Shown here: positions 4,637 to 61,058 of the stretch, piece by piece
How positions within the stretch are numbered: the first letter of the stretch is position 1
Layout of the letters: every line of letters starts with the position of its first letter
Assembly: GCA_964036045.1 (NCBI GenBank)
Contig: OZ038381.1
Location: forward strand, 117,759,790-117,823,789
Origin: Eutreptiella sp. 'Long Island Sound 2002'
Lineage: Eukaryota > Euglenozoa > Euglenophyceae > Eutreptiales > Eutreptiaceae
DNA: 64,000 nt
Direction: 5' to 3'
Translations under genes and position numbers: made by a program
The notes under the pieces: generated by a model
Databases searched by the model: none
What the model was told of the DNA's origin: nothing
What the model saw: the letters and a program-made list of their open reading frames with translations, nothing else

Positions 4637-4640
4637 ACCT

Positions 4641-14552: not shown

Positions 14553-16346
14553 TAGCCCCGGCCCGCGCCCTGGCCCAAATCACGTCCGGGCGCCCGGGCT
14601 ACCAGCTGGGACTGGCCATGCTCTGCCTGACCCAATAAATCAAGCACCGCTGGCCATCCACAGGGACCGTGCCCTGGATCTAAGCCATCTCCGCCGCCCA
14701 CACACAAATCGAGGCAGGCCCAGCCACGCGGAAGGACCCCCCCCCCCAGGCCACAGCACTCCCTCACCTGCGGGTAGCACGCCATCCACAGGATCCTCCG
14801 CCGCGTAGGCCTTAGCCCAGAGCTAGCATACCCTCTTCCCACCACTGACCAAGAGGTGCACCAAGAACGCACGCTCATCTGCGAGGTCCTTGCCGCGGCC
14901 GCAGAAGACAGCAAGCTTCTCCTCCAAACCGCCCGGCCTACAACAGACCACACAGGCGCGCCGCTGCAAGCGGACACATACACCAACACAACACACAACC
15001 CCGCGCAATCTGGGCCCCCGCCCTTCCCCCCCCGCTTCCCACACACGCCTACCATCGCGTGCAGCCCCGGGCCCCGCGACAGGGCCCTTCCCAACCGCCC
15101 AAACAACCGCACACGCCCGCCACGGATCCACCCGCCGAACACTCCGCACCACCCCCCACACCCGGCAATCCGCACACACCCACTGCAAGGAGCCCCACGC
15201 CCCAAGGCACACCCATCCCGCCCAGTGACCCGCACACACCCCCCACACACACCCCCGGAACCCCAGGCCCACCCCGCCCCGGCCCCCGGATGCAGCCCGC
15301 GCGAACTGTTTTTCCCCGCGGACGCCAACCCACACAACCTCACGCATTGCAGGACCCCGGCCCAGTCGAGCCCAGAAGGCGAAGACTGCACACCCGCGCC
15401 TCCCTTCTCCACTGCTGCCGAGCAGATCAGCCCTTCGGGCCGCCAGGTCACGGCCGGGCCCCCCGAGGCACCCAGCGCCCCCCCATGCGGCCCGAGGACA
15501 TGCCCTCCATCCTCCGCGCTGTCACTGCAGCGGAAACCGCCGCGACCCACAAGCCTGCAACCGCCCGCATGACATCGCAACCCACGTCCCCCAAAACCAC
15601 CAATTCCTCCTCGTCATCATCCTCATCGACGTCCTCCACCTCATCCTCCGACCCCCCCCTCCCTGCCGACCGCATCCACAAAGCCACACCCAAAGCCAAA
15701 GCTGCAGCCACACACCAGGCTGCCGGAGGCCCCCTGACCCCAACACAGACAACCAAGGCAACCTGGCAGCACACCATGAACCCCCCCCAAGGGGCACCAG
15801 TGCCCTCGCACCTCCCAGACGAGGTCCCTCTCAACCTCGAACCGGACCCCAACCCAAAACCCGACCCCAAACCCAAACCGGAACCCAAACAACAACACCA
15901 CCCGCAGCAGCACCACCACCACAACCACCAACAACAACAACACAAACACCACCCTAAACAGCCCCCAAAACCACAAAAGCTACGACGGCAGCACAAGCGA
16001 CCCCGCCCTAACCCAAACCCTAACCCAAACCAGGACCCCCCACCCACGACATCCCGAGCCCCCCTCCCCCCAGCGGCCGCCGCCACCACAGAGGCGGCCA
16101 CCGAGCACGACCCCGTCCGAACCCTCGTCAACATCCCCATCTCCAAGCGCCCCATCATCCACCCCCTACAAACCACCACCGCCGCCTGGCAGACCGACCC
16201 GGGGACTTTGGACCCCTCGACCTCGGTCATCGTTAAGCCCGGCCCCCAACCCGCCCCCACTACCCACCAACTTGTACGGCCGCAGGGGCTGCAAACAATG
16301 CCCGACCCCCCCGCCCCGGCGGGGGGACCGGAATATCCACAAGGGA
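14553..16346 (+). pseudogene. LINE-1 fragment: peptidase end and Ser/Pro-rich accessory region
   Basis: The sequence starts at the segment matching LINE-A 'GYHPGLAMLCLT' and runs through the conserved EDSKLLLQTARPTT block. It continues through CSPRELFFPADANPH, a Ser-rich tract (15604-15650), a PNPKPDPKPKPEPKQQ repeat tract and a QQHHHHNHQQQQHKHH run. Reading frames shift several times, and TAA codons occur where LINE-A has TGG, so it is dead. It ends abruptly at the LINE-A insertion point. Confidence 0.75.
16336..16346. repeat. Target-site duplication of LINE-A, left copy
   Basis: TCCACAAGGGA here and at 32501-32511 are identical 11-mers exactly flanking LINE-A. Removing LINE-A plus one copy restores the continuity of LINE-1. 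Confidence 0.9.
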
Positions 16347-17989
16347 GGTAGGTAGGTAGGTGCACTCGGTCGTGGAGAGGCGCCCCTGGCGTCGCCCCTG
16401 TGACGAGCAGGAAGAGGCTCCGCGCGTGAAGAGGGGAGGCGGCTTACTTCCCGCTAGACCTGACTGTTGGCCCCCAACAAAGCGGCCCCGGGCAACGCCG
16501 GGAGGGCTGATCGCCGCCAGCTTGACGTGCTTGTCTCGCTGGGAGGGTGTGCCCCCGTGCTTGCGCACGTCCCCTCCTTTGGGCGGAACTTTCACCGGAC
16601 TTCCTGGCGTATCCCGTTCCCAAGGCATGCATGCACGTTCTTGGTACTAGGGTTCCGAGGCGCTTGGGTGTCGCACGCTCCGCCTCGAGTCCCAAAGCAG
16701 CGCAGGCCTTAGGATGCAGCCTGACACCCGGTCTCCGGATCTCGTTTGGCCGGGTCACCTGCATGGCACAGGCTGCCTCAGTGCCCGGGCTGTGGGCACT
16801 GGGTTTCCTACTGTTGTGCGGCGTTTGTGTTTTGGTCCGGTTGGCGGTTGGGTGTGGGTTTTGTTAACCCCGCGGGTCCTGGCTGGGGTCTTGGATGGGT
16901 GTGTTTGGGCTCGGTTTGTGGTGTTGTCCATCTAGTGTCGGCTGTTTGTGGTGTTCGTGGTTGGGCTTCAGTTTCGGCCTGCTTTTGGGACGTGTGTGGT
17001 TTCGTGGGCGCCCCGCTTGCCCCCCTGCCGTTTCCGGTTCCGGCGTGCGGTGTGGGCGTGTGTGCTGGGCCCGGGTCTCGGCTGTGCCCAGCCCTTCCTG
17101 GCTGGGTTGTCGGGGTGTGATTTTTGCGCCTTTTTTTTTCTTTTTTTTTTCCCTGTCTCGGGCTTTGTGGTCCCTGTCCCTCCATCCCCTTTCTTTCAGG
17201 CTGGGCTGGTGGCTCTCTTTTTGTTTTTTTTTCTCGTTTCCGTCTCCCTTTTCCCCGTGGGCCGCTGTTACTGGCTTGGTGTTGCCGGTTTTGGGTGGGT
17301 GGTCCCCCTGTGCCTCTGTGGGGGTCCTGTCTTCGGTGCCTTCTGGGGGGGGGGGGTTTGGCCGCCTCTGGTGGTGTTGGCGGGCGGTTTGGCGGCTGTG
17401 GGCTGTTTTCGTGCCTTTTCCCCCTCCCCCCTCCTTTTTTGGGGGGGGGGGGGGGGCTTGCCTGTTCCTCCCTCTGCCTTCCCTGGGCTGGCGCACGCAC
17501 TGGCCTGCATTCAGTGTTGTCTTCCGGGCTGCTGTTTTCAGTTGCGTTCTGTGTGGCCGCGTTCCGGCCCCATGGGTCGGGTGGGCTATGTACACGGTGG
17601 GCTCGGCGCCCCTTCTTGCCGGGTTAGGTCCTGGCTCTGCCGGCTGGGCGGCTGCGCCAGGCGGCTGCTTGTGGTTTTGGGTTAGGGGGCTGGGGTTGTT
17701 CGTGTCCTTTCCCCTCCGAGGTGCCGGCTGTAATCTTCTGGGTGGTCCGCCACCGTTGTTGCCAGGCGCGCTGTGGCCCCGTGTGTGGCCTGCGGTGCTG
17801 GTGTGTGGCGTGCTGGCGCGGCGCCTTCCAGGGTGTGTGGTGGCTGGCTTTGGTTAGTCCTTCAGGTTGAGGTCAGTCGTGCCGTGTTGTGCCGCTCTGT
17901 GCTGCGTCGCGTTGCGTCGTGCTGTGGCGCGTTGCACTGTGGCGCGCTGTGGTGCGGTGTGCCGTGGTCTCGCGTGGTGCCGCGGTGGG
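16347..17989 (-). other. LINE-A 3' UTR with (CCTA)n tail
   Basis: This GC-rich noncoding region aligns to 34950-36923 of LINE-1. It includes a CACGACACGGCAC-type short repeat (about 17880-17990). A C-run/A-run/G-run hairpin-like tract lies at 17405-17460, T-rich runs near 17130-17240, and about three minisatellite units at 16810-17110. The conserved terminal about 500 bp ends in three TACC units (16347-16360). ORFs of 200-320 codons on either strand here are low-complexity artefacts. Confidence 0.75.
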
Positions 17990-20900
17990 TCAGTGGAGGT
18001 CAGCCTGGCATGAGTCGTGGTGCGGAGTGCGGGCCGGAGTGTGGCTGGCTGGTGGCTGGGGGGTGCGGTTAGGTGTGGATGTCTCGCTGGGTCCGTGCTG
18101 TGGGGGCTTGGGCGTGCCGCTCGGGCTGGTGGGTCGGGTAGGTTGTTCGCGTGACGGTCCGTGGGGTTGCCCTCCCTGGGGGCCCGTGCCTCTGTCCCGT
18201 GTCCTCTCGGGGTTTCGGTCTCTAGTCCTGGGTGCCTCGGCCGTGCCTTTGTCCTCTTCCGGTGCCTGTGAGGTGGCCCTTGTGGTGGCCAGGGTCATCG
18301 CCTGGCGGTGAGGGCGTGGTGGTGCGCCGTGCGGCGGCGTTCCCTGTGGCTTCCTCTGTGGGAGTGGCCCATTCTCCCCGTGTAGGTGTGCCCTCCATTC
18401 TCCGTGTGGTTTCCGGTGGCCGGTGGGCGTGCGCTGGTGTGATCCGCATGGCGTCCGATGTTTGCTTCGGTGGTGTGTGTTGGGGTGTTTGGTGCGGGTG
18501 GGGCGGCGCTGGTCCCCCTGTCGTGGTGTGCCCTTCCTGGGTGTGGGTCGTGGTGCCTGCCGTGGTGCCCTTTTCTTCCGTGTCTTGGTCCCCGCTCCCG
18601 CCCCTTCCTGGTTCTTGGGTTGTTTCCTGCCCCCATGTGGTGTCGCTTCCGGCGTCCTGTCCCTGCGAGTGCCTGCCCTCACTTGGGGCCCCTCCGTGCC
18701 CTCTTGCCTGAGTGCTCCTTGGTGCCCCTTGCCCTTCTCTTGCCCTTGTCCTGCCCCTTCCTGGTGTGGCGGTGGCGGGAGGGGCGGGGTGGGGAGGGGG
18801 CGCCGGCGGCCCAGGCCCGGGGGTGGGTGGCCTGGAGCCACTGGCGGAGGGCCTGGGGGGTGTAGGGGGGGCGGAGGCCCTGGACTGCATCGCGGAGGAG
18901 GGCCTCCCATGCCGCTTGCGGCATGATGGCCTCCAGGGGGGCCTCGTTGGGGTTTGCGGGGGTGCGGGTGCGCACCTCCTCGAAGGTATGCACCATGTGC
19001 ACCCCTTCGTGCCTTCCCGCTCCTCCGGCCCACTTCACCCAGCGGCAGAGCTCCTGCAGAGCGGGGGGAAACCACCAGGCGAGGTGGGCGGGGGCCCGGG
19101 GGGGGGAGGGGTCCGTGTCCGTGGTCCTGGAGCGGTGGGGGGAGGACGTGGACCTGCGGTGGTGGCGGGGGTGGCGGTGCCTGGGGGAGCGGGAGCGGCG
19201 GTGGCGGCGGCTGGGGGTGGAGGAGGGGTACGGGCGGAGGGGGGAGCGGGAGGGGGAGGTGGACATGGGGCGGCGGTGGCGCGCTTGGTGGCGTCCGGGG
19301 GAGCGGGAGTGGTGGTGGCGGGGGCTGGGGGTGGTGGATGGGTACGGGCAGCGGGGGGAACGGGGAGCCCGGCGGGGCGTGTGGGGAGAGGGGGGGGCGG
19401 ACGTGGGGCGGCAGTGGCGTGCCTGGCTGCGTCGGGGGGAGCGGGAGTGTTGGTGGCGGGGGCTGGGGGTGGGGGTCTTGTTTGGGCGGTGGGGGGAGCA
19501 GGAGGCGGACATGGGGCGGCAGTGGCGCTCGTGGTGGTGCCCGGAGGAGCGGGAGCGACGGGAGCGGGGTCCCGGGGGGTCGTGGTGGCACCTGAAAAAG
19601 CAGGAGCGGCGCGAGTGGGTGGTTGATGCGCGGTGGGAGTGTGGGCGCCGTGGGCGAGTGTGCTGTGCGGGGGGGGGGCGGGAGCGCCGCCGTTTGCGGG
19701 ACCGGGCCTCATTGCTCGACTCGGGCCAGTCCGGAGGCGTCGGCGGCCGATGGGGGGCCTCGCGCGGTGCCGCCTGGTACTGGGGGGGGGGGAGGTCCCT
19801 CGTTGTCCATGGATCCGCCACGTAGGGGTGTGGTGGCGGTAGCGGCTGGTGGTGTGGGTCGAGTGGCTGTCCTTGGCCGGGTTGGGCCCAGGGGCCCCCT
19901 TCGGCGTGGACGTGGTGGCCCGGGGGGGTACGGATACGGTTCCTGGTACGGGGGTGGTGGCTGGTACGGGGGGGGTGGCCCCTGGCGGTAGGTGGGGTAT
20001 GCGGCTGAAGCGCTCGGTGGCTGTCATCCCATCCGCTGGTGCTGTTCGTGCACGGGGGGTTGTGGCTTGGTGGGGTAGGGCGGTGGGCAGTGGTAGTGGT
20101 GGGGGTGATGTTTGTAGTGGTGGTGGTGGGGCCGCTGGTGGTGGTGGTGTGGGTAGCGGTGGGGTTGGTGTTCCGGGTATGGCCCATGGACCCCTTGTGG
20201 GTTTTCTGGTCCCCCTTGTGGGGGTGGGGGGTTAGGCATCGTGGGCACTCCCCGGGGCTGCACTATGTGGTGGGCAGGGGGGGCGGGTCAGGGGCCGGGC
20301 TTGACGGTGACGGTGGTCGAGGGGTCCGACGTCCCTGTGTCGGTTTGGCCGGCGGTGGTGGTGGTTTGTGGGGGATGGATGACGGGGCGCATGGTGACGG
20401 GCATGCGGACGAGGGCTTGGACGGGGTCGTGCTGGGTGGCCACCTCTGTGGTGGTGGTGGGTGCCGGCGGGAGGGGGGCGCGGGTTGCGGTGGGTGGGGG
20501 GTCCTGGCTTGGGCGAGGGTCCGGGCAGGGGTGGTGTCGGGTGGGTTTGTGTCGTTGCGTTTGTGGTGTTGTGTGTGCTCGCGTGGGCGCCGGCTTGGGT
20601 TTGGGGTCGGGTTTGGGGTTGCGGTCCGGTTCCAGGTTGAGGAGTACCTCTGTCCCGAGGTGTGAGGGCGCAGATGTCGGGTCGGGGGTCGTCCCGGTGC
20701 GTTGCCGGGGTGCCCGAGTCGCCTGTTTGGAGGTTGGGGGGTCGGTGTGTGCGGCCTCGGCCTTGGCTTTTGCCGTGGCCTTGAGGATGAGGGCGGCGGG
20801 GAGGGGGGGGTCGGAGGATGAGGTGGAGGAGGTGGACGAGGCTGAGGATGAGGAGGAGGTGGTGGACGCGGGTTGCGCTGTGATGCAGGCGGGCTTGTGG

Positions 20901-21559
20901 GCGGCGGCTTCTGCTGCGGCCACGGCAGGGAGGATGGAGGGCATGTCCTCGGGCTGTAGGTTGGGGGCGGGCGGCTGGGGGGGCCTGGTCGTGACCTGGC
21001 GGCCCGGCGGGCCGATCTGGTCGGCAGCGGCGGGGGAGGGAGGAGCGGGGCTGTGGCCTTCTCCTTCTGGGCTCGGCTGGGCCCGGGTCCTGCAATGTGC
21101 GAGGTCGTGTGGGTTGGCGTCCGCGGGGGGGAACAGTTCGCGTGGGCTGCATTCAGGGGCCGGGGGGGGTGGGCCTGGGTTCTCTGGGGTGTGTGTGAGG
21201 GGTGTGGGCGGGCCACCGGGTGGGGTGGGCGTGCCGCGGGGCGCAGGGCTCCCCTCGGCGGGTGTGTGTGGGTTGTCGAGTGTGGGGGGCGGTGAAGGGT
21301 GTCCGGCGGGTGGGTGTGTGGCGGGCGTGTGCTGGTGTTCGGGCGGGTGGGGGGGGCCCGTGTCGCGGGGCCCGGGGGTGCGCGCGATGGCCGGCGTGTG
21401 TGGGTCTCCGGTTGAGTAGCGAGAGGGGGGGGGCATGGGCGGGGACTGTGCGGCGGGGTGTGCTGTGTCGGTGTATGCGTCCGCTTGCCGCGGCGCGCTT
21501 GCGTGGGCAGTTGTAGGCCGGGCGGTTTGGAGGAGAAGCTTGCCGTCTTCTGCTGACGC
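17990..21559 (-). pseudogene. LINE-A ORF3, C-terminal part: Ser-, His- and Arg/Ser-rich accessory region
   Basis: After the conserved AEDGKLLLQTARPTT block comes a Pro/Thr-rich spacer and a Ser run (about 20830). A TGA lies at 20288. Then come a His-rich tract (HHHHQRPHHHHYKHHPHH, about 20100-20170) and a conserved PPPQYQAAPREAP...EARSRKRRRSR segment resembling a bipartite nuclear signal. SR-type repeats based on SRSP.RH..RH.RPMS.S (about 19150-19600, units 108-140 bp) follow. A small domain, LCRWVKWAGGAGRHEGVH...MPQAAWEALLRDAVQGL (about 18850-19060), recurs in LINE-1, LINE-2 and LINE-3. A basic Gly/Arg tail ends it. The function is unknown; nuclear localisation and nucleic-acid binding are inferred from composition. 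Confidence 0.6.
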
Positions 21560-22785
21560 GGCAAGTATTTTGCAAACGAGCTTGCGTATCTGGTGGACCT
21601 CTTGGTCAGTGGTGGGAAGGGGGTATGCTAGCTTTGGGCTAAGACCCGCGCGGTTGAGGACCCTGTAGATGGCGTGGTACCCGCAGGTGAGGGACTGCTG
21701 CGGTCTGGGGGGGGGGTTTGGTCGTGTGTCCGGGCCCCCCTCGACTTGTGTGTGGGCGGTGGGGATGGCCCAAACCCAGGGCACGGTCCCCGTGGGTGGC
21801 CAGCAGCGCTGGATCCAGTGGGTTAGGCAGAGCATGGCCAATCCCGGGTGGTAGCCCGCCTTCCCTGAGGTGATTTGGGCCAGGGCGCGGGCTGGGGGCT
21901 TGTCCCCTGGCTGGAGGACACCCCTGAGGACCCTGTGCTCGGTGGTGGGTCCCCCACTGCCCCTGGTGGGGCGGTCTCCGTGGCGAACATGGTGTCTGTC
22001 CCCTGGATGAGCCATTGCGGGCCGGGGGACGTAGCCGTAGCGGCTATCACGTAGTAGTGGCCGCGCTCGAGGACTGTAACCCAGACCTCCGGCGGGGGGT
22101 GGTCACTGTCTGTAAGTGGGGGGAAGAGGTCGTCGTCTGGGGTGCGAAGGCCGGCGGCGCGGAGGGCGGTGTCGCGGTTTGGCGCGGTGGCCTGTTCCCA
22201 CTGCTCTGGGCGGTTCGGGTCCGCTGGGTGGTCCGTCTCCGCTGGCGCCCGTCGTAGGCGTACGGTCCCTTGACGCGTGACGTTGATGCCGGTGTCGTGC
22301 GTCAGGGACTGGCCCCACTCGATGGGGGGGATCCAGACGTGCTGGCCCCGGGTGTGTTTGCGGGCTCGCCGGAGCACGAGGTCTACGATGGTCTCGTGGA
22401 GGCCGCTGCCTGGGGTGGTCAGGTCCCGGAGGGCTTTGACGGTGAGCTTGGTCCAGTCCTCTTGTAGGCGGTACCAGCCCAGGGGGGTGGTCGGGGCCCT
22501 GTCTTGGAGGGTTGCTCGGAGGAGGTCGGGGTCGCGGATGGTGGCCGGTGTGAGGGGGGGGTGCCCCGGATACAGGGGGGGTGGGCTGGATGGGCTGCCC
22601 GGGTCTTGCGCGTCTACGTCGATGGATGGTTGGCCCTGGTTGGGCTCGGCCGGACTTGGCGGTGCCGGGTGGCTTCTTAGGTGTGAGACGGGTCTCGGGG
22701 CGCTGTGGTGGTGTCTTGGAGACCTGTGGATGGAGACGGGGGGCGCGTGCGGGGCGCGGAGCGGATTAGTGGACGTCTGGGTCAT
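21560..22785 (-). pseudogene. LINE-A ORF3, N-terminal part: putative Ulp1/C48-like cysteine peptidase
   Basis: ORF3 starts at ATG 22785, overlapping the end of pol. After a Pro-rich leader, the fold-like part has the strand HVWIPPIEWG (residues 149-158). It is followed by GHYYVIA (His243), QWLIQGTD (Asp264) and, after a frame change near 21950, PQQSLTCGYHAIYRVL with the candidate nucleophile Cys at 21683-21685. The order His, Asp, Gln..Cys-Gly follows SUMO-protease-like C48 enzymes, and the first strand resembles their IPI segment. LINE-2 carries a diverged homologue with the His, Asp and Cys blocks in the same order. Asp-to-Cys spacing (about 110 residues) is longer than in Ulp1. The function (polyprotein cleavage or removal of a ubiquitin-like tag) is inference. 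Confidence 0.5.
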
Positions 22786-23768
22786 GCACGGAATGGTAAT
22801 GGATGAGACGCTGCATGTGTTCCCTGGCGGTGGGGTCGGTGAGTTGCTCCGCGTGTGTTAGCAGGAGGTGATTGCGGTGTACCATTTGGGCCGCTGCTCT
22901 GCGGACTGGAGCTGGAGGTGTGCTGCTGCCTCCATGGGGCTTTCCGTGTGTTTGGTGAGGTGTCGGTGCAGGGCCTGTGTCACTGCCCCTCTCATGGTGG
23001 CTTCTTTGATCAGGGGTCCCCGGAAGAGGGGTTCGGTGGCCTGGTGTGCGTGGCTGTCGGTTGGCCATCCTTCGTGTTGTCGGAGGGTTTCCGCCGGGGA
23101 CCAGCCCACTAGCGTGTCCCTGTCTGTATGGAGGGGGCATTTCTTGAAGTGTTCCCAGTCCTCCGGGGTGGTGTGGTCGCACGGGCAACAGGTGTGTTCG
23201 TCGGGGACGTGGATGTGCTTGCGGGTGAGCCATCTGGCGACCCTGGTAAGGAATGGCAGTTGCTCCCTGAGGAGCTGGATGCGTCGTTTTTGGAGGTGGG
23301 CTGGGACGTTTGCTGGGCGCAGCGCTGAGTGGTAGAGGGGGACTTGCAGTCTGTCCTGGAGCTCCTGGATGTGCGTCCGGCTGTCTGCGTCGCCGAGCAC
23401 GCGGCCGAGATGTTGAATGGGGTTGGGGTAGTGGTATGCTCTGTCGTGGGAGGAATAGGGGGCGTCCTCTGGTACCCAGTCCGGGGTCTGATGGGGCTCG
23501 GGTACAGGGGGCACGTATTGGAGGTGTGTGTGGTTGCGGCCGAGGTCAGGGATCTGGAGGGCTGGTAGGTGTGTTGTGCGCTGGTGTACTGCCTGGTTGT
23601 CGACCTTACCATTTCCGTATTGGTGTCTGTGGGACTCTTGTTTCACGATGTGGAGTTGGACGTAGGGGGGAAGGCTGCGAAGGGCTTTCCAGAGCAGCAC
23701 TGCCTGGGTGCCGAGGCTCGTCACGGTGGCCTTGTGAAGTGGTTGCCTTGCTATGCGGAGGAGCAGGT

Positions 23769-24042
23769 GTGTGTCGACAGTGGCGTCTACCACGAACCAG
23801 ACCCGGACGATGTGCGGGGAGTGGGCGGGTAGGTGGGCCGCGATCTGGGTGATGGCGTCCGCCATGGCCCCTAGCTCCCCGTGGGAAGAGGCTCCATAGG
23901 TGGTGTGGCCCGTGTGGTGGTCCATGTGGTAGTGTCCCCCGGTGTGGGTTAGCTGCAGGGTGGCCCCCCCGGTGATGGGCGTGAGGGCGGATTCGCCTGA
24001 GGCGTCGGTGAAGAAGAGCCGGTCCGCCGGTGATGGTTGTGG
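23769..24042. repeat. 274-bp direct repeat, left copy (partner 24584-24856)
   Basis: The two copies differ by about one substitution and one 1-nt deletion, and both end exactly at the borders of the 541-bp insert. The arrangement is that of a target-site duplication, though far longer than usual. Confidence 0.9.
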
Positions 24043-24583
24043 TTTGAGGTTTGAGGTTTGATTTTGCGGGTACTAGACGCCTTTCGGCCCCGGGGGGCCA
24101 CCTGGTCGGGCCAGGTGATATCCTCCCAGCCGGGCCCTAGTGGGGGGCCCTCCAAGACGCGCATCCTGCCTGGTGGCGGAGTCCCCCGGGTTCACAGAGC
24201 TCGGAGCCCCGTCCTTCCCCGGCGTCCACGTTTCGCCACTCCCCGGTCAGTGCATCAATTCGCAGCCGTGGCCGCGGGCGCTTACCCACTGCGTCGCCCC
24301 CCTAATGCGTGGCCGCCCGGGGCACCTGCGCCGCCGGGCCCGTGCCACTGGCTTGTCGCCAGTGGGACCCCCTTGGGCTGGCGCGGAGGCTGCCTAGCCT
24401 AGGGGTTGGGGCGTGGCGCTGTGCGCCACTACTGCCTTGGCGGGTGCAGTGTCCCGTCTGTGTGTGCGCGGCGCTCGCGGCTGGTTCGGGGGGGGTTCGG
24501 GCCGGTACCTGGTGTTGTGTCCCCCCTTCTTCCCCCTTCCCACCCCGCGTGTTCCGCGCTGCGTGTGGCGGGCCGTCCCGTCC
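24043..24583 (-). mobile_element. 541-bp SINE-like retroposon inside LINE-A RNase H
   Basis: This unrelated insert is bounded on both sides by the same 274-bp LINE-A segment. Read on the minus strand, it ends in a heptamer tail (TCAAACC repeated about three times), typical of a retroposon 3' end and different from the host LINE's TACC tail. A GACGCAGTGGGTAAGC block (about 24275-24295) resembles a pol III A box, but I found no convincing B box. It contains CACCTGG/CCAGGTG inverted arms near 24100. Its 71-codon ORF looks incidental. Confidence 0.55.
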
Positions 24584-24856
24584 GTGTGTCGACAGTGGCG
24601 TCTACCACGAACCAGACCCGGACGATGTGCGGGGAGTGGGCGGGTAGGTGGGCCGCGGTCTGGGTGATGGCGTCCGCCATGGCCCCTAGCTCCCTTGGGA
24701 AGAGGCTCCATAGGTGGTGTGGCCCGTGTGGTGGTCCATGTGGTAGTGTCCCCCGGTGTGGGTTAGCTGCAGGGTGGCCCCCCCGGTGATGGGCGTGAGG
24801 GCGGATTCGCCTGAGGCGTCGGTGAAGAAGAGCCGGTCCGCCGGTGATGGTTGTGG
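24584..24856. repeat. 274-bp direct repeat, right copy
   Basis: This copy carries the 1-nt deletion in the RNase H SHGELG codons, so the upstream RNase H reading ends as YGASSQGS-stop. The left copy (23769-24042) keeps the good frame. Confidence 0.9.
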
Positions 24857-26031
24857 GAGGCGGCATGGGTTCATGGGCAGGTAGGCGTATATGGCAAGGC
24901 CCGTGGCGAGGTGGGCTACTGGGGTTGTGGGCTGCAGGATGGGGGTGGCGTACACCCCTATTCCTTTGGAGATGATGTGTTTCGCTTGGGGGGACAGGGC
25001 TATGAGTCCCTGCTCCGGCTGTCCTTGTGTGAGGTAGGAGTAGATGTAGTGGAGGATGTAGGCTGTGTCGGGGTTTAGGTCGTGGCATGTGAGGGTTTGT
25101 GTTCGGTGCTCCGGTGTGTGGCAGGAGTAGTGGAGCGGATAGTAGGGGTGCTCGTGCTTGCCCGTTCTGCCTGGCTCGTACATGCTGTAACAGATGGCGA
25201 CTCCGGCCGGGTCGGGGCGGGGGCATGTGGGTGTAGTGGTGAAGAGCCATTTGGGCGCGTGGTCGGGGTTCCATGCTACCATGGGGTTAGTGTCGGTGCG
25301 GTGGAACCATGGGGCTATCCATGCGTAGGCCTGTGGTGGTAGGTGGGTTGTGGGGTGGGTGTGGTGGCGTGCTATGAGGTGTAGTGTGGGCCATGGTGTG
25401 GTTGGTGCCTCGGGGTCACAGGCCCAACATGTGCGTCCCATGCTCTGGGAATCTTGGGGGACCCGTGGTAGGTCTGGGGCGGTCATGTGGTGTTTCGGTA
25501 TGCGCCATTTTGCCCCGTGGTGGATGACGGTGGTCTGCGTGGGTTTGGCTTCATTCAGGGCCAGTAGTAGGGTTAGTGGTGGGACTGGGCCCGTCACCTG
25601 GGGGACGGGTTCGTGTTTCGATCCGGTGGGTGCGTAGGGCGGTGTCGCTGGGATGGGTCGGGGGTGTTGCTTTGTGAATTCTCGGTAGGCTGTGTGCATG
25701 TCTTTGCTGCCCGGTAGAGTGTGTCCCGCTGCTCGTGCCGTCTGCGTGAGGTACTGGTGGAAGAGGCGGTATTGTGGCCATTCGGGAAGCTGTAGAAAGG
25801 GGGTGTGGTGTGCCCCGCTGTGGTGCAGGACCCGCATTCCGGGGAGGGTGACGTATACTAAGGTGATGGAGGCCCCGACAAGGTCTATGGTGTGGATGGT
25901 GCCCTTGGGGTGATCGTGGAGGTCCCCGCAGGGGACCGCTAGTGGCCCTTCCTCTGGGCACGTGTGGTTGGTGAGTATGGCGTGGCGCGGGGATGGGAGG
26001 GGAAGCTGCAGGTGGTTCCACAGGCACGTGT

Positions 26032-28545
26032 TCATGTTGGTGGGCATGCCTGTCTGGTGGAGTACCCAGCGCGGGCATGTGTTGCGGGCCCGTTGTGCGG
26101 CTTGGAGGCCGATTGCGGTGATTGCAACTTGGGAGGGAGGGTGGTGTCCTCAGGGTTGGCGGCCTGGATTACCCCCAGGTGGGTGGTGCTTGTCACGACT
26201 TGCATGGGGGGCCCTTGTGGCCCTAGGGTGGGAGGTGTGGCAGACCCCTTGATGATGGCCACTGACTTTGTGGGGTGGACGATGAGGTTGTTGTGGGAGA
26301 GGTAGGAGACGGTCACGTCCAGTAAGTCGTTGGCCTGTTGGGTGACCGTTGGCCCGGGGTCCGGGGCATGGGGTTCGTGTGGGGTGTGCGCGACTGTGAG
26401 GTTGCTGTCGTCCGCGAAGCCCACCAGGGGGGAGAGGAAGGGGTAGGGTGCGTAGGCCGGGTAATCCTGCTCGATTGCGAGGGCCAGGGAGAGCGTCAGT
26501 AGAAGGTACAGGAGGGGGCCCTCTGCTCCCCCTTGGGGGACCCCGCTGCCTGGCTCCAGGAAGGGGGTGAGGCCTGCTCCAGTTCGGACCGTGTATTTGC
26601 GGGTGCGGATGTAGCCGGAGGTGAAGTTGTAGAAGGGGAGGCCTAAGCGTTTCCACACCGCTTCCAGAAGGAGCCAGGGGGTGTTCGGGAAGGCTCCTTT
26701 GACGTCGAGGGAGGCGATGATGAGGTCCACCGGGTCCATGTCTGCGATGGTGTCCTGGAGGAAGATGGCCTCGTGTGGGGACCGGCCTGGGAAGGCCCCC
26801 CAGAGGCTTGCTGGTATGTGGGGGTCCAGGTGGGGGCAGATGCGGCGCAGGAGGATGGTCCAGACTATTTTGACCTCCGTGACCGCAGAGCCTATGGGGC
26901 GCCAGTTGTCCGGGTTTGCCCAGTCCCCTTTTTTGTAGAGGGGTTTGGTCCGCCCCGTGACGATGTCCAACAGGCGGTGGGCCAGGATGCGGAGGAGGTG
27001 GGCGGGGAGGTGGCAGTATGCCTCTGCAGAAAGGCCGTCGTAGCCTGGGTTTTTGTGTTGCCAGAGACTGTGGATGGCCTTCCGGACTTCGTGGATGGTG
27101 ATGGGGCGTTTTTCCAGTTGCCTCCTCTGGGCGTGGTTGAAGACCCGAGGGAGGCGGTCGATTTTGGCCTGGGTGTCTGGGTCCAGTGTGTCTTGGGTGG
27201 GGGTGTGTTGCCGGAGAAAGCTGTCTTGGCCGGCCTGGAGCACTGTGGCTCGGTCGTTGGTGAGGGAGCCGTCCTCCTGCCGGACCGTGGTGATGGTGCG
27301 GTGGCCGGTGTCGGTCATGGCGTCGTTGAGATGGCGGATGGCCTTGTGGGGGAGTTCATGTTGCGCATACCGTTCGTGTTCCTGGGCGATGCGCTGTTTC
27401 CTGTGGATGTGCCACCGCTGCAGGTCTGCCCTGATGTGGGCTATCCGTGTCCTGCAGTGGTGTATCTGGCGGCGGGTTTGGGGGGTGTCGGTGTGGAGGA
27501 GGGTCGCCAGTTGTTTCTTCGCATACCAGAGGTCATGGAGCATGTCCCCCGGGGCCGTGGGTGGTTGGTCGTCGTCTGTGTGGGGGTGTTGTCGGAAGCC
27601 GCAGGCGACGGCAGCCGTGCGCATGGCTCTGAGTAGGTCGGTGGGGTCTGGTTGGATGCGCCGGGCGCTGTCTATGGCCCTGTGATATTGGGACCAGGCA
27701 TGCTTGTCATGCAGCGGGGGCATCTTCAGGGGGGGTGGTAGGCCTTGGTCCGCATCCTCTGGGGGGCTGGGGGGAAGGTTGGGGATGGTGAGGCGGATGT
27801 GCAGGGGGCTATGGCCTGTGGGTCCCAGTGGGAGGGTTCCATATCGGGCCTCCGCTCGGATGATGGTGGTGGGGTCGCCATAGCATACGTCGATGCGGGA
27901 TGGGGCGGCATCTGTTTGGTGGGGGAAGTGGTATGGTTGGCCTTCGAGGTTGGCTGTCAGGTCCACGAGCCCCAGCATTTCGATGGTGTCGCGGACTGCT
28001 TGGTCCTGGGGTCTGGCCTGTCCCCCTCGGTCCGTTGGGGTGGGGGCGGCGTTCATGTCGCCGATGATGACTGTGGGGGCGAGCATGGCCATCTGGCGGT
28101 ATGCCTCGGCGAGGGCTTGGAGGAAGGGTTCCGTGGCTTCGCCGAAGGGGGGGTGGGTGTTGATGACGTTGAGTTGCCATCCGTCCCCGACGACCTCATA
28201 GACACCTAGCCTCCCTGGGACGCTGAGGTGGTGGACGAGGTGGACGTGGATGCCGGTTTGGGCGTATAGGGGGGTCCCCTTGTGTCAGTAGCATTTGTAC
28301 GCTTTCTGGTCCGGGGTATATATGGGGGTGGTTTCTGGGGGGTCGTCGCGTTGTAGGCCTTGTTCCTGGAAGGTGAGGAGGTGGGGAACCCATCCCGGCC
28401 CCTGTGCCATCGGGAGCTCTTGGAGGGTGGTTGTGGCGTCCTTGGAGTATGTGACGGCCGGGTGGTTGAGGTCGAGGAGGTTGACCGTGGCCTCGGTGTG
28501 GGCGGGCCGGGGCTGTGGAGGCTTGTGCCCTCGGCCCTTGCCCTG
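26032..28545 (-). pseudogene. LINE-A pol, part 1: AP-like endonuclease and reverse transcriptase
   Basis: The frame runs from the ORF1 stop. The endonuclease has LLTFQEQ (about 28360), NVINTHPPFG (about 28150), VIIGDMNAAP (about 28060) and PTGHSPLHI (about 27810), which match the Glu, Asn, GDxN and GH catalytic blocks. The RT has NPGYDGLSAEAY, LYKKG, NWRP (about 26895) and motif A SLDVKGAF (about 26700). Motif B GVPQGG is near 26530, motif C FADD near 26410, then a Lys block and HLGV. An in-frame TGA lies at 28285. Compared with LINE-2, about a dozen residues are missing just before LYKKG, and about 390 bp are lost after the RT near 26130, where the frame also changes. The enzyme would nick target DNA and prime cDNA synthesis. 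Confidence 0.85.
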
Positions 28546-31500
28546 TCAGGGATGGGGACTGGGGCTCGGGGACTTTTTGCCGGTTTGTGGGCGTTTGGGT
28601 AGGCCCGGCGGGGAAAGGCCTTGGCTCCACTCCGGGGGGAGCTCCCCAGTGTATTTGGTGCCTGTGTGGGCCTTGTTCTCTTCGGTGCGGAGCCGGATGG
28701 GGTGGGCGCTGGTGAGCTCCAGGGTGTAGCTGACTGGCTTGTCCGGGTTGCTGCTGCCTTGGTCTAGTTCCTTTTGGCGGTGCCAGATCACCCGGATCTG
28801 TGGCCCCCCGTTGTCCCCTGGTTCCTTGAGGAGGTACTGGATCGTGCCCTCACACCAGATCCAGTCGCCTGTGTGGTCGTTGCGGAAGGGCTGTTCGACC
28901 TTCGCGCCTTTTTCGAATCCTGGGTACGCTTTGGGCGGGGGCGGTGCTGGTGGCGGGAGGGAGGATGATGAGGATGCCTGGTCCGGGTGGGGCGGTGGTA
29001 GTGATCGGAGGGAGAATGAAGAGGATGCTTGGTCCGGGTGGGGCGGTGGTAATGGTGGGAGGGAGGATGACGAGGATGCTTGGTCTGGGTTCGCCGGGTG
29101 GGTCGGGTGGGATGCGGGGGGTTGGGAGGTCGCTGCTTTTCCGGCTTGGCTGGGGCGGGTGCGCCCCTTTGTCGTCTCTTTCGCTTGGGTGGGACTGGAG
29201 GTAGCGGGGCTGGGGGGGTATGGGGTTTGAAGAAGGGGTGCGTTGCTTGCTGGTCCGGATCCCTCAGTGGGGGGTTCTGTTGGTGTTTGCATTTTCGCTT
29301 TCGCGTGGCTGCGTATGATGTCGGCGAGCTTGCGCACGGTCTCCGGGGGATCTGTTGGCCATGGCAGTGCGGCCGGGCTGTCGTCGAAGGGGTGGTGTAG
29401 GTGGTAGTTCCTCGTGGCCTTGGCCTGCATGACCCAGGCTTCTGTGGGTTCTGGTGTGTCCGGGCCGTTGGGGGAGCCTTGAGCCCCGTAGAGTGCTGTG
29501 TGGAGGGCTTCCCAGGGGACGCCTTCGCGGCCTGTGAGGGTGGTGGCCTGGAAGAGTCGCTGCTGGCCCCCTTCGGGGTCTTCCGGGTCTATATCCGGGG
29601 TATAGGCCTGGGCCGCCATGAGGACTCCGTGTGCCCAGTGGAGGACCCACCATTGGGCGTCCGCTTTGAGGATGTGGATGGCGGGTTGTTTGGGGGGGCG
29701 TGTCCAGGGTGTCCCACGATGCGACGGCTAGTGGTATCCTGGAGGGGTGGAGGTGTCGGGGGGCCTTGCGGATTAGGAGTTGATCGATGTGGAAGGGGGT
29801 GACGAGATCTTTGGGGCCCTGGGGTGGTGGGGGCATTGCTGGGATGGTTGTGGGGTCCCAGTGGCGTTCGTGGGCGGCGAGGGTGTACAGGGCAGCGGTG
29901 ATGATGTGGTGGGCTTGCCCCTCCAGGACGATGTGGCGCTCCGTGCCGAAGTCCTTTGGTAGGTGGGCTGCGGGGTGGACGGCGATGTGGGCCAGGGCGC
30001 GTTGGTGGGCCTTTTTTCCCCCGTCTGGCGCTTGTGTCCGTTTGTCCCCCGGGATCTGCTGGTTTTGGTGTTTTGGTGGGGGTGGTCCCAGGGCGAGGGA
30101 TTCTACACCGTGGAGGGGGATGGCGTGTTCCCTGGACCTGTTGGGCAGGATGTATATGCCCGGGTCTCCCGGCACGGTGCCCAGGTACATGTTGCCCGTG
30201 ATGGGGGGGGCCGGCAGCGGTTGGCGCAGGAGTGAGGTGCATGGGGTGGAGCAGGGCAGGTCATGGTGCTCACACCGGGGGTGGTCGATGCCGTATGGGG
30301 TGACGTGTACGGCGAAGGGTCCAACAGCGCGCTGGAGTTTGTGGGGTTGGATGTTGTGGAGGCGCGCCACCGCCCGTGTGTGGGAGCGCCCTGCGCTGAT
30401 CCACACGGTGTCTGCCCGCGACGCCGCTGGGTACAGGCAGTCTGTGGTGATGCCTGTGATCGTGCGGTTGTGGGTGGTATCTGATACCCTGGCGGGGGGG
30501 GCGCCGATGCGGGGGATGGTGTGGTCGTCGTGGAGGGTGCGGGCCTTGCGCCTCGCTTCGTGTCGGTGCTGGGCCTCCTGGGCGGGGGTGTGCACACCTG
30601 TGTGTTTGGGCTCCTTGTTGGGGCGGTCTGCTGTGTGGAAGGGGGTGGGCCAGGAGGTGGCGTGGTGGAGGGTGGGGTGTGGGAGGTCCCCCCGTTTTGC
30701 CAATGTGTACAGGGTTGTCGCGGCGGCCCTTTCCGCCTGTATGGTGTATCGCTCGTCGTGTCGGCGACGGGTGACGAGGACGTTGGGGGCCGTCAGCTCA
30801 TATACCTGTGTGGTGTGGGGGAGGTGGCGGGTGACGGTGATCTTGGCGGCGTCGTTCTTGCGGGTGGTGGTGTGGGGGATGATGTAGAGGGTCGCCCATT
30901 CGTCCTGGGGGGTGTGTTTTGTCCGGTCTAGCTTGAGTGGGGGCTGGAGCGGCTTCGGTGTTGGGGGCTTGTCTCCGCCCTTCGCGTGGGGCGCCACTTT
31001 GATTTCGACCAGGTATTGTGGGCCCCAGGTTTCCGGGGCCCCTACCTGTGTGGCTGCCGCTGTTGCGGCTTCGAGGAGGGCGGTTGTGTTGGTGTCTAGA
31101 GGGGGGGCCCCCGGTTGGGGGGTGACGGGTGTCGTGGTCTTGGTATGCCCACCAACTGGTGTAGCCTCGTTGGGTGTTGCGGTGCGGGGTGTGGGTCTGG
31201 GCTTGCTGGATGGATAGGGCGGTCTTGATGTCCTCCGCTGCTTGTGGGTTTATGGGTGTGGCGTACGCCCATACTCCCGGGGCGTGTATGCCGTGTGGTG
31301 CTTGGCCTACTCCTCGTATCGGCTGTAGGGTGTGGTGGGTGCGTGTGAGCCCTAAGTGTTCTTGGAGGAGGTCCCCCCGGATGTCCTCCCACCGTTGCTG
31401 CCAGGTGTGTGTGTGGTCATTGGGGGTGGGGTAGGTGATGACGATGGCTTTCCATGGGGTGGGCCCTGGATGCCCCGTCATAGGTGCCGACGATGCTTGC

Positions 31501-32487
31501 GGGGGTATGTGGACGGTGTGGGCAGGGGCTGCTATTACGGGCACTCCCTCTGTGGGTGTGATCGTGGCATCGCCTTGGACGGTGAGGAGGAGGTGGTGGC
31601 GGTCCGTCGGTAGTGCCCAGGTGGTGGTGGGCTCGCTGATCGAGTGGAGGCGGATGGCCTGGAGGCCTGGTGTGATTTCGTCCCATCGGAGTGTGCCGTT
31701 GTGGACCGCCCATTCCCGTGGCAGGTCTCGAAACCCGTTTCGGTCTGGGGTGGAGCGGTGTTGCGGGGGGAGCTCCATTGTGGTGATGGGGTGGGTGAGG
31801 GGCTCTGTGCGGGGTTGGTCTCGTGTGGTTGGTGGTGATGGTGCCTGGGGCATCTCTTCGTCCAGTTGCCGTGGGGCTTTCGCCTCCTGGAGTTCTGCAC
31901 TGATGGCGGCGAAGACATCTGGGAGGGTGGGGAACGCGGGGGGGTGGGGTGCCGGATCGTTTCAGGTGATGTGGTATTCCTCCGGGTTCTCGGGGCTTTG
32001 CTGTACGGTGATGGCGGCTGTGGCTTCGTCTTCAGGTGTCCATCGGTGTGGATTGTGGTTGGGGGGGTGGAGGGTGACGGTGTGGCGGTGTTTCCAGCTG
32101 TGGAACGCTAGGAGGGCGTGGAGGCCGTGTCTAGTGTCCCCGTGCGGGCGGGGGTAGGTTTCGGCTGCTGCCTCCAGGAAGACGTCCGCGGTGCCTTTCC
32201 AGGTGTCTTCCCAGAGAAGGTCTTCCTCTGTGCCCCACTCGTTGTCGTTCCTCTTCTCCTGCTTCCACCCCTGGAGGGTCGCGTGGTCTTCAGGGAGGTC
32301 TCGTTGGACCTCCCTGATAGTACTGCTCGGCGTCAATGGGGGCTAGGGTGCTGGCCAGTGTGGCGTAGATGTCCCTTGGGGGGGGGGGGGGTGGGGGCCT
32401 GGCGGCGCGGTCGGGGTCGGGCTCCTCTCGCTGGTATTCCGCGTTCTGGTCTGCGGTGGACGCGGGGGATATGGAGCGTGGTGGCAT
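28546..32487 (-). pseudogene. LINE-A ORF1 (frame-disrupted)
   Basis: The first ATG (32487) is 14 nt from the element's 5' end and encodes MPPRSISPAS. Coding then moves between frames: near 32310, at C/G runs near 31085-31135, and at a C7 run at 29694-29700. One in-frame TGA is at 31962. The segments are an acidic N-terminus and a mixed alpha/beta-like middle, conserved in the relic at 12018-12587. A Pro/Ser tract follows with three DQASSSSSLPP repeats (about 28950-29090). The last is a small Trp-rich module, FEKGAKVEQPF...WIWCEGTIQYL...RVIWHR, that looks like a small beta-barrel. ORF1 proteins usually bind RNA and chaperone priming. The same frame continues into pol after a single TGA (28546-28548). 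Confidence 0.65.
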
Positions 32488-32500
32488 GGGTAGGTAGGGC

Positions 32501-32511
32501 TCCACAAGGGA
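32501..32511. repeat. Target-site duplication of LINE-A, right copy
   Basis: This TCCACAAGGGA is identical to 16336-16346. LINE-1 sequence resumes directly after it (GGGCCATACC, matching LINE-A at about 20185). Confidence 0.9.
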
Positions 32512-35009
32512 TCCTAGGGCCATACCCGCAGCACCATCACCACCACTACCAGCGCCACCGCCACCAACGCCCCCACCACCACCACCACCATCACCATCAC
32601 CACCACTACCACTGCCCACAACACTACCCCACCGGGCCACAACCCCCCGTGCACGAGCAGCACCAGCGCATGGGATGGCAGCACCCGGGCGCTTCACCCC
32701 AATACCCCGCCTACCACCAGGGGCCAGCCCCCCCGTACCAGGAACCGTATCCGCCCGGCCCCCACATCCACGCCGAAGGGGCCCCCCGGGCCCACCCCCA
32801 CCCGGGACAGTCACTCAACCCGTACCACCAACCGCCACCGCCCCCGCACCCCTACACGGCAGATCCATGGAGGGTGGGGGACTCCCCCCCCCTCAGTACC
32901 AGGCGGCACCACGCGAGGCCCCCCAATACCCGCCAACGCCTCCTGACTGGCCAGGCATGCCCCGCGACGAAGCCCGGTCCCGCAAACGGCAGCGCTCCCG
33001 CTCCCCCGCCATACGGCGCACCCAACCCCGGCGCCCACGCTAGCCACAGCACCACCGCGCCTCAGCCGCTCACTCGCGCCGCTCAGGCTCCCTGAAGGGC
33101 CACCAAAACCCCCCAGGGCCCCGCTCCCGCCGCTCCCGCTCCCCCGGGCGCCGCCACGCAAGCCACCGCCGTCCCATGTCCACATCCCCCTCCCCCCGTG
33201 AGGTGCGCCATGAGTCCCGTTCCCCGCGCCGCCCGTGCGCATCCTCCACCCCCAGCCCCCGCCACCCCCGCTCCCGCTCCCCCGGGCGCTGCCACGCACG
33301 CCACCGCCGTCCCATGTCCACGTCTTCCTCCCCCCATGAGACCCACCGAGCTTCCGGTTCCCCCCGCCGCCAGTACGCATCCACCAGCCCCAGCCCCCGC
33401 CACCGCCGCCCCAGGACCTCCAGCTCGGAGCCCTGCCCCCCCCAGGCCCCCGCCCACCTCTGCCCCCGCGTTGCGGGAGCTCCGCCGTTGGGTGAAGTGG
33501 GCCGGGGGAGCAGGAAGGCGAGAAGTGGTGCACTTGGTGCACATCCTCGAGGAGATCCGCAGCCGCACCCCTGCCAACCCCAACGAGGCCGCCCCGGAGG
33601 CCTCCATGCTGCAGGCGGCATGGGAAACCCTCCTCCGGGACGCGGTTCAGGGCCTCCGCCACCCCTACAACCCCAAACCCTCCGCCGGTGGATCCAGACC
33701 AGCCCACCCCCAGGCATGGGCCATCGGCGCCCCACAGGCCCCCCCCCCACCCCACCACCACCACACTGGGAAGGGAAAGGGCACAGGCAAGGGGAGGACA
33801 AGGGACGGGAAGGGACACCCCGGTAAGCAAGCGCCCACAGGGACAGGGCACCGGGGGCGACACAACACGGGAGCAGGAAACCCCGGACGGGCCAGGAAGG
33901 GGAAGGACCAGGGACGGGGGCGCAGAGAGAGAAAACGCAACGGCGGGCACCAGGGCGCACAGACAGGAAGGGCAAGCCACAACGGAGGGACCAGCACTGC
34001 CCCACCCCCAGCAGACACCGCGCGACCCTCAGAGGCGCACGCCCGCCAACACACGCCGCCAAAGCACGGACCAGACGCCGTACTGACCAAACCGGCTCAC
34101 GCCCACCGGCCACTGGAACCCGAACGGGGGAAGGAGGGCACACCCAATGGGGAGAAGGGGCTACACCCACCCAGGAAGCCGCCGAGAACACCGCCGCGCA
34201 GCCCACCACCACGCCCTCAACGCCAGGCGACGACCCCGGCCACAGCAAGGGCCACCACACAGGCACCAGAAGAGGAGGAGGACACGGACGCAGCACCCAG
34301 GGCTAGAGGCAAGGACCCCCAGAGGACACGGGACCAATACACAGGCCCCCAGGGAGGGCGGCCCCGCCGACACCTACCAGACCCACCAGCCGGAGCGTCA
34401 CACCCGGACCCCCGCAACACGGATCCAGCGAGCCACCCCACACCTAACCGCACCCCCGAGCCACCAGTCAGCCACAAAACCTCGAACCGCGTCCCGCACC
34501 ACGACTCAGGCCAGTCTAACAACCACCGACCCCAGCCCCCGCCCCCACCACGGCACAACACGAGGCAACACGGCACACCGCACTGCAGCGCACCGCCGTG
34601 CAACGCACCTCGACAAGGCACCCGTAGACACGACACACCACAACAGGACGCGGCGCGACGCGGCACAGCGCGGCTCACCACGGCACGACACGGCGCAACA
34701 CGGCACGACAAAGCAGGGCGCACAACAACACAGCACGGACCAGCACGACGCAGCACAGCAAAACACTGCACGACACACCACGGCGCACCAACGCACAACA
34801 CAACACCAAAGCAAGTGACACTAACCGAGGGTCTAACCCGAGCAAGCCGCCGCACACCGCTGAAGACGCCGCACCAGCCCGCCGCACACCGGCAAGGGGC
34901 ACCACACGCCCGGCAACTTCGGCGGCGGCCCGCCCACACAAACCGTCACCAGAAAGTTAAAGCCGGCACCACGGAGGCGGATGGACACAGAAAACCCCAG
35001 CAACCCTAA
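32512..35009 (+). pseudogene. LINE-1 fragment: His/RS-rich accessory region
   Basis: The order is the same as in LINE-A: a His tract (32520-32620), HAEGAPRAHPHPGQ, PPPQYQAAPREAP and EARSRKRQRSRS. Two or more SRSP/RPMSTS repeats follow (33120-33420, 140-bp spacing). The C-terminal mini-domain RRWVKWAGGAGRREVVHLVH...LQAAWETLLRDAVQGL (about 33480-33660) and a Gly/Lys/Arg-rich tail complete it. Frames shift at about 32700, 33060 and 33190, so no single intact ORF remains. The repeated SR units and the WVKWAGG domain are the parts conserved with LINE-A. Confidence 0.7.
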
Positions 35010-43379: not shown

Positions 43380-43475
43380 CCCCCCATGAAGTTCACCCCT
43401 ACCACTCAACTGAGCGGAGGTATCTTCCATCATGGAGGTAATACCGAAATAAAGTAGGCACTTCATGCCTAGGGC

Positions 43476-46092: not shown

Positions 46093-46614
46093 CCCTAGTG
46101 ACCCCTTTTGCACACCTTTGAGCGTAGCGGTTGAACAGCGGTTGAACCCAGTTGAACAGCATGTTGCTGTTCAACCCCCCAGTTGAACTCGGTTGAACGC
46201 GGTTGAACAGTTCAACTGGCCTCTCGCGCCAATCGGTGGCGCGTGCTCGCGCGATCACGCGTTCAACAGTGGTTAATTGGTAACTGTAGCCTGTCCCACA
46301 ATTTTGGTTTTGAGCTGTTCCCTAAAACCCAGTTAAAACCTGGAACCTACTACCAATGGGCAGGTGGTGGTGTGGTGACCACATACATGAAAACTGGAGC
46401 CGGCACGTGGTGGCCAACACGTGGCGGTAAAGGGAATGCACATGGTGTGTAGTAGTTGCCACCTGCTCGCTTTTTACTATATACATGACGCATTGAATTG
46501 AAGAATATTTAATTTCACCTTTGTGCAATATGGTAGTGTCACCAAAAAAAACGTAACAATAAGAACAAATTAGAGCACCAAGAGATTCCCCATTGTGGTT
46601 TCTTACTTGTGTGC
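46093..46614. mobile_element. 522-bp unclassified insertion in LINE-2 RT
   Basis: This ordinary-GC sequence lies between LYKKA and GNWRP codons, flanked by AAGG on both sides (46089-46092 and 46615-46618). The first 120 bp hold at least eight GTTGAAC or GTTCAAC words. They include a hairpin GTTGAACAGCA...TGCTGTTCAAC (about 46161-46185). There are no clear terminal inverted repeats, poly(A) or ORF, so class is undetermined. Confidence 0.6.
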
Positions 46615-60957: not shown

Positions 60958-61058
60958 GCCAAGAGCGGCTTCAATAAGTCAGACAGACCTGGTAATCCTC
61001 CATCTGGTCCGAGGAGGACGATGAGTCCTACAGGCTGCCTGACCCTGAGATACCCCTA

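Follow-up and report, generated by a model that had tools for sequence, protein, structure and literature searches.

Introduction

An N-terminal Ulp1-like peptidase is found in Utopia-1_TSP and NeSL, which belong to a group with a restriction-like endonuclease (PMC4640811). The I group of long interspersed nuclear elements (LINEs), in which a reverse transcriptase (RT) is accompanied by RNase H, includes Ingi, I, Nimb, Loa, R1, Tad1, Loner and Outcast (PMC4640811). Stop-start coupling between open reading frame (ORF) 1 and ORF2 has been described in SART1 (PMC2881922, PMC5972666), and in type II readthrough a UGA is followed by CGG or CUA and often by a stem-loop about 6-12 nt further on (PMC11166343). 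Giant, domain-rich retroelements have also been reviewed (PMC6431247, PMC6338049, PMC5718144), and no LINE of the make-up reported here is described in the passages of those reviews that were consulted. In the present study, a stretch of 64,000 nucleotides from Eutreptiella sp. 'Long Island Sound 2002' (contig OZ038381.1, positions 117,759,790 to 117,823,789; hereafter the window), from a genome of 2.28 Gb, was analysed. It contains copies of two diverged families of non-LTR (non-long terminal repeat) retrotransposons, LINE-A and LINE-2, of which LINE-A is about 15 kb long.

The Terminons are likewise large retroelements with added ORFs, but they are Penelope-like telomeric elements with another RT and other ends (PMC6431247). 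Like NeSL and Utopia, LINE-A and LINE-2 are non-LTR retrotransposons with a proposed Ulp1-like cysteine peptidase (PMC4640811). However, they have an apurinic/apyrimidinic (AP)-type endonuclease (EN) instead of a restriction-like one, and the peptidase-like domain lies in a separate downstream ORF3 instead of at the N-terminus; on both features they fall outside the NeSL/Utopia group, no dedicated search for a restriction-like endonuclease having been made. With the I group they share the RT, and a putative RNase H is suggested in LINE-A and LINE-2 by motifs. LINE-A differs from the I group in its third ORF, its UGA junction and its much greater length. The literature search, which covered few subscription papers, found no report of a readthrough fusion together with a coupled third cistron in a LINE. 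The best overall explanation of the data, with a probability of about one half, is that these two LINE families combine a reinitiated ORF3 with a peptidase like those of clan CE, and that LINE-A in addition uses stop-codon readthrough.

Two families of giant LINEs

As the self-comparison of the window shows, LINE-A interrupts an older copy that lies on the plus strand and belongs to a related subfamily. LINE-A is bordered by an 11-bp target-site duplication (TSD), TCCACAAGGGA, at 16336-16346 and 32501-32511. Because the older copy is split and the TSD is found at both edges, the coordinates of LINE-A (Table 1) are exact. LINE-A terminates in an (ACCT)n tail at its 3' end, and no terminal repeat was found in the window self-comparison; together with the RT and the AP-type EN, these are the features of a non-LTR retrotransposon. 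A copy on another chromosome, L063, aligns with the window copy to within 3 bases of its 5' edge. The window copy has an 815-bp addition (a 541-bp insert plus a 274-bp duplication) that is not in L063, so the element itself measures about 15.3 kb, in support of the sequence-only reading, made by a model from the letters alone, which had proposed an AP-endonuclease LINE of roughly 15 kb with a conserved third, downstream ORF. The insert is GC-rich and is flanked by the 274-bp direct repeat (98.9%), which looks like an unusually long TSD since this stretch is single in L063. On either side of LINE-2 lies a copy of a 1358-bp direct repeat (97.7%; 43475-44832 and 57139-58495), which is apparently a very long duplication of the target within another element.

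When the genome was searched with the ORF3 domain described below, all 40 scored matches per family spanned the complete domain query, the window copy being counted among them. The 39 further copies per family, which are among the best matches, were 95-97% (LINE-A) and 97-98% (LINE-2) identical. LINE-A and LINE-2 are thus young families. As only the best candidates were scored, the sample leans to good copies and the true copy numbers are probably higher than the matches listed.

The two families are diverged copies of a common plan, as had been proposed from sequence alone. Protein matches between them run through the EN, the RT, the RNase H-like region, a CCHC motif and the ORF3 domain, with identities of 35-62% by piece in ORF2 and 25-31% in the last domain. 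The order EN, RT, RNase H-like region and CCHC is that of I-group LINEs. The EN was recognised by PF03372 with 25.0 bits in LINE-A and 27.1 bits in LINE-2 (cut-off 24.5), and stayed under the cut-off in L063 (20.3 and 24.3 bits). With PF00078, the RT of LINE-A was over the cut-off, that of LINE-2 was under it (22.8 against 29.6 bits) and that of L063 was again over it, with E 1.7e-15. L063 ORF2 also matched chains of human L1 ORF2p in the PDB (best E 8.9e-12); its EN alone matched chain 2v0s at E 0.19 only. For the RNase H proposed earlier, the Asp-Glu-Asp-His-Asp pattern stood, and so did the conservation of the region in both families (54% identity in the part that they share), but the region was unrecognised in Pfam, PDB and Foldseek fold searches. 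Its AlphaFold2 model, from two window rows only, had a predicted local distance difference test (pLDDT) score of 45; against the PDB the model had no match with E<=0.001, and the best 50 of its 605 matches at E<=10 included no RNase H. On motif evidence, the ORF2 region after the RT is termed RNase H-like.

Table 1. Features of LINE-A, LINE-2 and the older related copy, in window coordinates
Feature	Position	Strand	Remark
LINE-A, complete element	16347..32500	minus	splits older related copy; 11-bp TSD; (ACCT)n 3' tail; L063 alignment
LINE-A ORF1 region	28549..31249	minus	broken by indels in window copy
In-frame UGA between ORF1 and ORF2	28546..28548	minus	TGA CAG in window; TGA CGG in 4 other copies
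GC-rich hairpin directly after UGA	28499..28544	minus	minimum free energy (kcal/mol): L063 -31.5; window copy -28.6
LINE-A AP-type EN (GDMN, SRID motifs)	27740..28500	minus	edges estimated; PF03372 match ~27865-28221
LINE-A RT (FADD)	26251..26934	minus	PF00078 E 1e-12
Secondary insert in LINE-A, 541 bp	24043..24583	minus	274-bp flanking duplication (23769-24042 / 24584-24856)
LINE-A RNase H-like region (D-E-D-H-D motif pattern)	23600..24015	minus	motifs; 47-54% identity to LINE-2
LINE-A CCHC-type Cys/His motif, ORF2 C-terminus	23130..23187	minus	read from sequence
LINE-A ORF3 ATG (22785) overlapping ORF2 stop TAA (22768-22766)	22766..22785	minus	
LINE-A ORF3 W-H-D-C domain	21640..22479	minus	frameshifted in window copy
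LINE-A W block	22335-22312	minus	
LINE-A H block	22062-22042	minus	
LINE-A GTD block	22002-21985	minus	
LINE-A Cys block	21703-21668	minus	
LINE-2	44833..57136	plus	5' truncated inside EN; (ACCT)n tail
LINE-2 EN, C-terminal part	44835..45200	plus	PF03372 E 4.4e-6
LINE-2 RT	46618..47417	plus	PF00078 below cut-off; 46-62% identity to LINE-A
LINE-2 RNase H-like region	49063..49456	plus	frameshifted
LINE-2 ATGA, ORF3 start over ORF2 stop	50284..50287	plus	
LINE-2 ORF3	50284..53754	plus	Pro-rich N-terminal part followed by the W-H-D-C domain (52702-53751)
Older related copy, left part	14556..16345	plus	Cys block decayed
Older related copy, right part	32502..36910	plus	

Junction of ORF1 and ORF2 in LINE-A

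ORF1 and ORF2 of LINE-A share one frame and are separated by a single UGA, before which 393 codons are open in the window copy and 570 in L063. The junction, like the overlap of ORF2 and ORF3 treated below, is new relative to the sequence-only reading. It was looked for in 12 sequences (the window copy, L063 and ten fetched stretches). All five sequences bearing the junction keep the UGA, followed by CGG in four and by CAG in the window copy; the other seven have no junction at the expected distance and are presumably 5'-truncated copies. The hairpin begins directly after the UGA. In L063, the 56 nt from the TGA fold with -31.5 kcal/mol (z -3.69, with 0 of 200 shuffles as good), as against z values of 0.34 and 0.76 for the 60 nt before and after the hairpin.

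Counted from the first base of the UGA, the next AUG begins after 138 nt, behind the EN start TVNLLDLN, which by comparison with the L1 EN contains the first strand and a catalytic Asn. As this EN start precedes the AUG, an ORF2 beginning there would not keep the whole EN, and expression of ORF2 probably needs readthrough of the UGA. The UGA looks like a true stop in the host, since with the standard stops the open frames of light-harvesting complex (LHC) genes reach 6122 aa. L063 ORF2 has two further in-frame TAGs; the window copy has a Gln codon in place of that at 4909, so both are taken as private decay. Unless the source element of LINE-A was mobilised in trans, it carried the UGA while it was active.

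The junction resembles type II readthrough in the UGA CGG context (four of the five copies, the window copy having CAG), the stem-loop and the same-frame extension. The differences are that it belongs to a LINE and not to a virus, and that its stem starts 1-2 nt after the UGA instead of about 6-12 nt. This short distance weighs against readthrough, and so do three further points. When L063 1022-8900 was scanned with a window at every third base, 5 of 2627 positions folded as well, of which three overlap the hairpin and two, at 2147-2150, mark a second place that folds as stably as the UGA hairpin. The agreement of the copies in the UGA reflects shared ancestry, because the five belong to one young family. 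Moreover, the ORF1/ORF2 junction of LINE-2 was not seen, the fetched 5' stretch showing no LINE frame. Alternatively, the UGA might not be read through at all: ORF2 would be reached by reinitiation or from a non-AUG codon downstream of this stop, and the hairpin would be a by-product of GC-rich coding. The region is indeed 64-65% GC, the hairpin is too near the stop for a classical type II signal, its stability is matched at the second place in L063, and ORF2 is thought to be reached by reinitiation in SART1 and L1 (PMC2881922, PMC5972666). On the other hand, ORF1 and ORF2 are in the same frame, the stretch from the UGA to the EN start has no AUG, the hairpin stands out from the flanking 60-nt windows, and UGA CGG is a named leaky context (PMC11166343). 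Expression of ORF2 without readthrough is on this evidence unlikely.

L063 ORF1 (1022-4668) is very long, with about 1,200 codons over two frames. Two pieces of it had no match in Pfam, and a stretch with HHLLLTVQGDATIT...HIPPQ resembles a cupin by eye only.

ORF2/ORF3 overlap and the coding of ORF3

In all 30 LINE-A loci an in-frame ATG lies 17 nt ahead of the TAA of ORF2, and a second ATG 9 nt more upstream is found in 28 of them. LINE-2 has an ATGA overlap in the window copy and in three of six fetched copies (4/7 sequences), the other three being without the junction region. As in SART1 and L1, the downstream ORF starts at or near the upstream stop; the coupling there is between ORF1 and ORF2, whereas in LINE-A and LINE-2 it would concern ORF2 and ORF3. 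Nested insertions are common in the window, and ORF3 could in principle be a fragment of a host gene or of a neighbouring element joined to a LINE by chance. This is very improbable, as ORF3 occupies the same place after ORF2 in two families with EN/RT identities of 46-62%, the ATG/stop overlap occurs in both, and dozens of loci are concerned.

The domain in ORF3 (hereafter the W-H-D-C domain, after the order of its blocks) has a W block, W(V/I)PPI(D/E)WG, an H block, H-Y, a D block, GTD, and a C block, C-(G/P)-Y, and the motifs named in the sequence-only reading were found at their places. Both window copies are damaged: LINE-A by a frameshift between the D and C blocks, LINE-2 by an in-frame TGA at 53479-53481 within the domain and by a stop at 50398-50400 earlier in ORF3. 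The domain is open in other copies, and all four blocks lie in a single open frame in 14 of 30 LINE-A and 27 of 30 LINE-2 loci (window copy counted). The earlier peptidase proposal had been made to depend, beforehand, on conservation of the His, Asp and Cys positions. LINE-A loci keep H in 30/30, D in 28/30 and C in 30/30, LINE-2 loci keep each in 30/30, and the three columns are invariant in 17 aligned open copies from both families.

With one copy per family, the domain had a BLOSUM score of 437 against a shuffled mean of -306 (standard deviation 38), about 19 standard deviations above. Identity between the families at codon positions 1, 2 and 3 was 0.447, 0.544 and 0.406, with 0.290, 0.261 and 0.410 expected from composition. 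As positions 1 and 2 alone exceed the expectation, the comparison shows that ORF3 codes for a protein and that selection has acted on it during a long divergence. Against this stands the synonymous test within families (minor count of at least 2), in which the excess was not significant, the null reaching the observed value in 67 of 1000 cases for LINE-A and 691 of 1000 for LINE-2, at loci that had been chosen as best matches to the tested region. Substitutions between LINE-A and the older copy over positions 22001-20202 of the window numbered 126/106/79 by codon phase, where the first number refers to third positions in the frame of the Cys block; this excess is weak, and there is none beyond. 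It had also been proposed that the families share an accessory ORF further downstream, and this was not borne out: no protein match between LINE-A and LINE-2 was found after the domain at E<=1e-3. Searches of viral and prokaryote collections yielded no relatives.

Is the ORF3 domain a clan-CE peptidase?

The H, D and C blocks are conserved in the order of clan CE. This part of the earlier peptidase assignment held, but a significant match that would identify the enzyme was not found. Several results weigh against the assignment. Pfam, searched up to E 10, gave nothing in the domain (an SR-25 match at 0.46 lay outside it), and NCBIfam had no match to it. The PDB profile search, also up to E 10, returned no C48 chain and only BOP1 at 0.46. 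Comparison by hhalign with nine C48 domains of the same genome gave E values of 0.11-0.18 and probabilities <1%; the C48 yardstick itself works, since SENP1 is recovered with it at 1.4e-44. Profile similarity to Peptidase C48 or clan CE is not significant. In favour of the assignment, the best local hhalign match, though not significant, aligns Trp to Trp and places the Cys block on the catalytic Cys block of C48. Against it, the sequence up to and including the Cys is RPQQSLTC in LINE-A and RPTTLQLC in LINE-2; LINE-2 appears to lack the glutamine before the Cys and has CPY in place of CGY. The spacing from D to C is 104-105 residues, as against 52 in a host C48 domain (L064), and another Cys (AM-C-L) shows the same invariance. 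The structure prediction suggested for this region was uninformative: AlphaFold2 from three window rows reached pLDDT 34, and no PDB match was obtained at E<=0.001.

It could be, as a somewhat unlikely alternative, that the W-H-D-C domain is a conserved structural or RNA- or metal-binding LINE domain, the order of H, D and C being coincidental in a fold rich in W, C and H. This would agree with the lack of support from profiles, hhalign and fold, with the apparent absence of the oxyanion Gln in LINE-2, and with the invariance not only of the second Cys but also of several Trp and other Asp, Glu and His residues. It is opposed by the place of the best hhalign match, on the Cys block, and by the order and local context of the residues (hydrophobic-H-aromatic; D after a hydrophobic stretch; W-hydrophobic, Pro, C-[GP]-Y), which fit clan CE and the host C48 domains. 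With a little over even odds, the ORF3 domain may work like a clan-CE cysteine peptidase; it is not filed as a C48 member.

Canonical C48 domains occur elsewhere in the genome. One is borne by a repeated sequence with a 1182-aa open frame in several places (L066 and others), and at another locus (L065) an apparent LTR-type pol sequence is joined to a C48 domain. Elements of several types in this genome seem to have acquired C48.

Other observations in the window and genome

The window also contains the RT of a different element at 60996-62090 (PF00078, E 1.9e-24) and, at 1-4639 on the minus strand, a retroelement that weakly matches an aspartyl protease family (PF13975, E 3.7e-5, below the cut-off). 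LHC polyproteins are linked to Euglena, and genes for light-harvesting polyproteins, with open frames up to 6122 aa and green-type LHC sequence, were found in the genome (G000:C23:19070551-19075362 and others). Together with fused globins, these genes indicate an alga with a green plastid, probably a euglenid. A vertebrate host was considered and set aside: eight globin matches were obtained in the genome, the best of them in fused intronless frames; in one open frame two globin domains are fused with no introns between them (G000:C4:10016146-10017315, L073).

Proposed expression and its meaning

Starting from the signals, domains and TSD found in the sequences, the following course of translation and enzyme activity is proposed. 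A single full-length RNA would be the template for translation of LINE-A. ORF1 protein would be the bulk product, and readthrough of the UGA at a low rate would yield a minority ORF1-ORF2 fusion, following the logic of gag-pol. Reinitiation at the overlapping AUG would give the ORF3 protein. The EN would nick the target and the RT copy the RNA by target-primed reverse transcription, new copies often being 5' truncated, as LINE-2 in the window is. The ORF3 domain would act like a cysteine peptidase of the Ulp1/adenain type (clan CE), and this putative peptidase could either free the ORF2 enzymes from the fusion or strip SUMO-like tags off host factors. A more specific claim is doubtful: that these elements form a euglenid giant-LINE lineage with retrovirus-like expression plus a coupled cistron, in which the UGA CGG/hairpin gives a readthrough fusion and the stop-start-coupled ORF3 encodes a highly diverged clan-CE peptidase processing the fusion or ubiquitin-like conjugates of the host.

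If the proposed explanation is true, the readthrough fusion and the third cistron coupled to it by translation would amount to a gag-pol-like mode of expression outside LTR elements, and the downstream peptidase would be a second case of a LINE paired with an Ulp1-like enzyme. Both signals, the UGA-hairpin and the ATGA overlap, are short and exactly defined.

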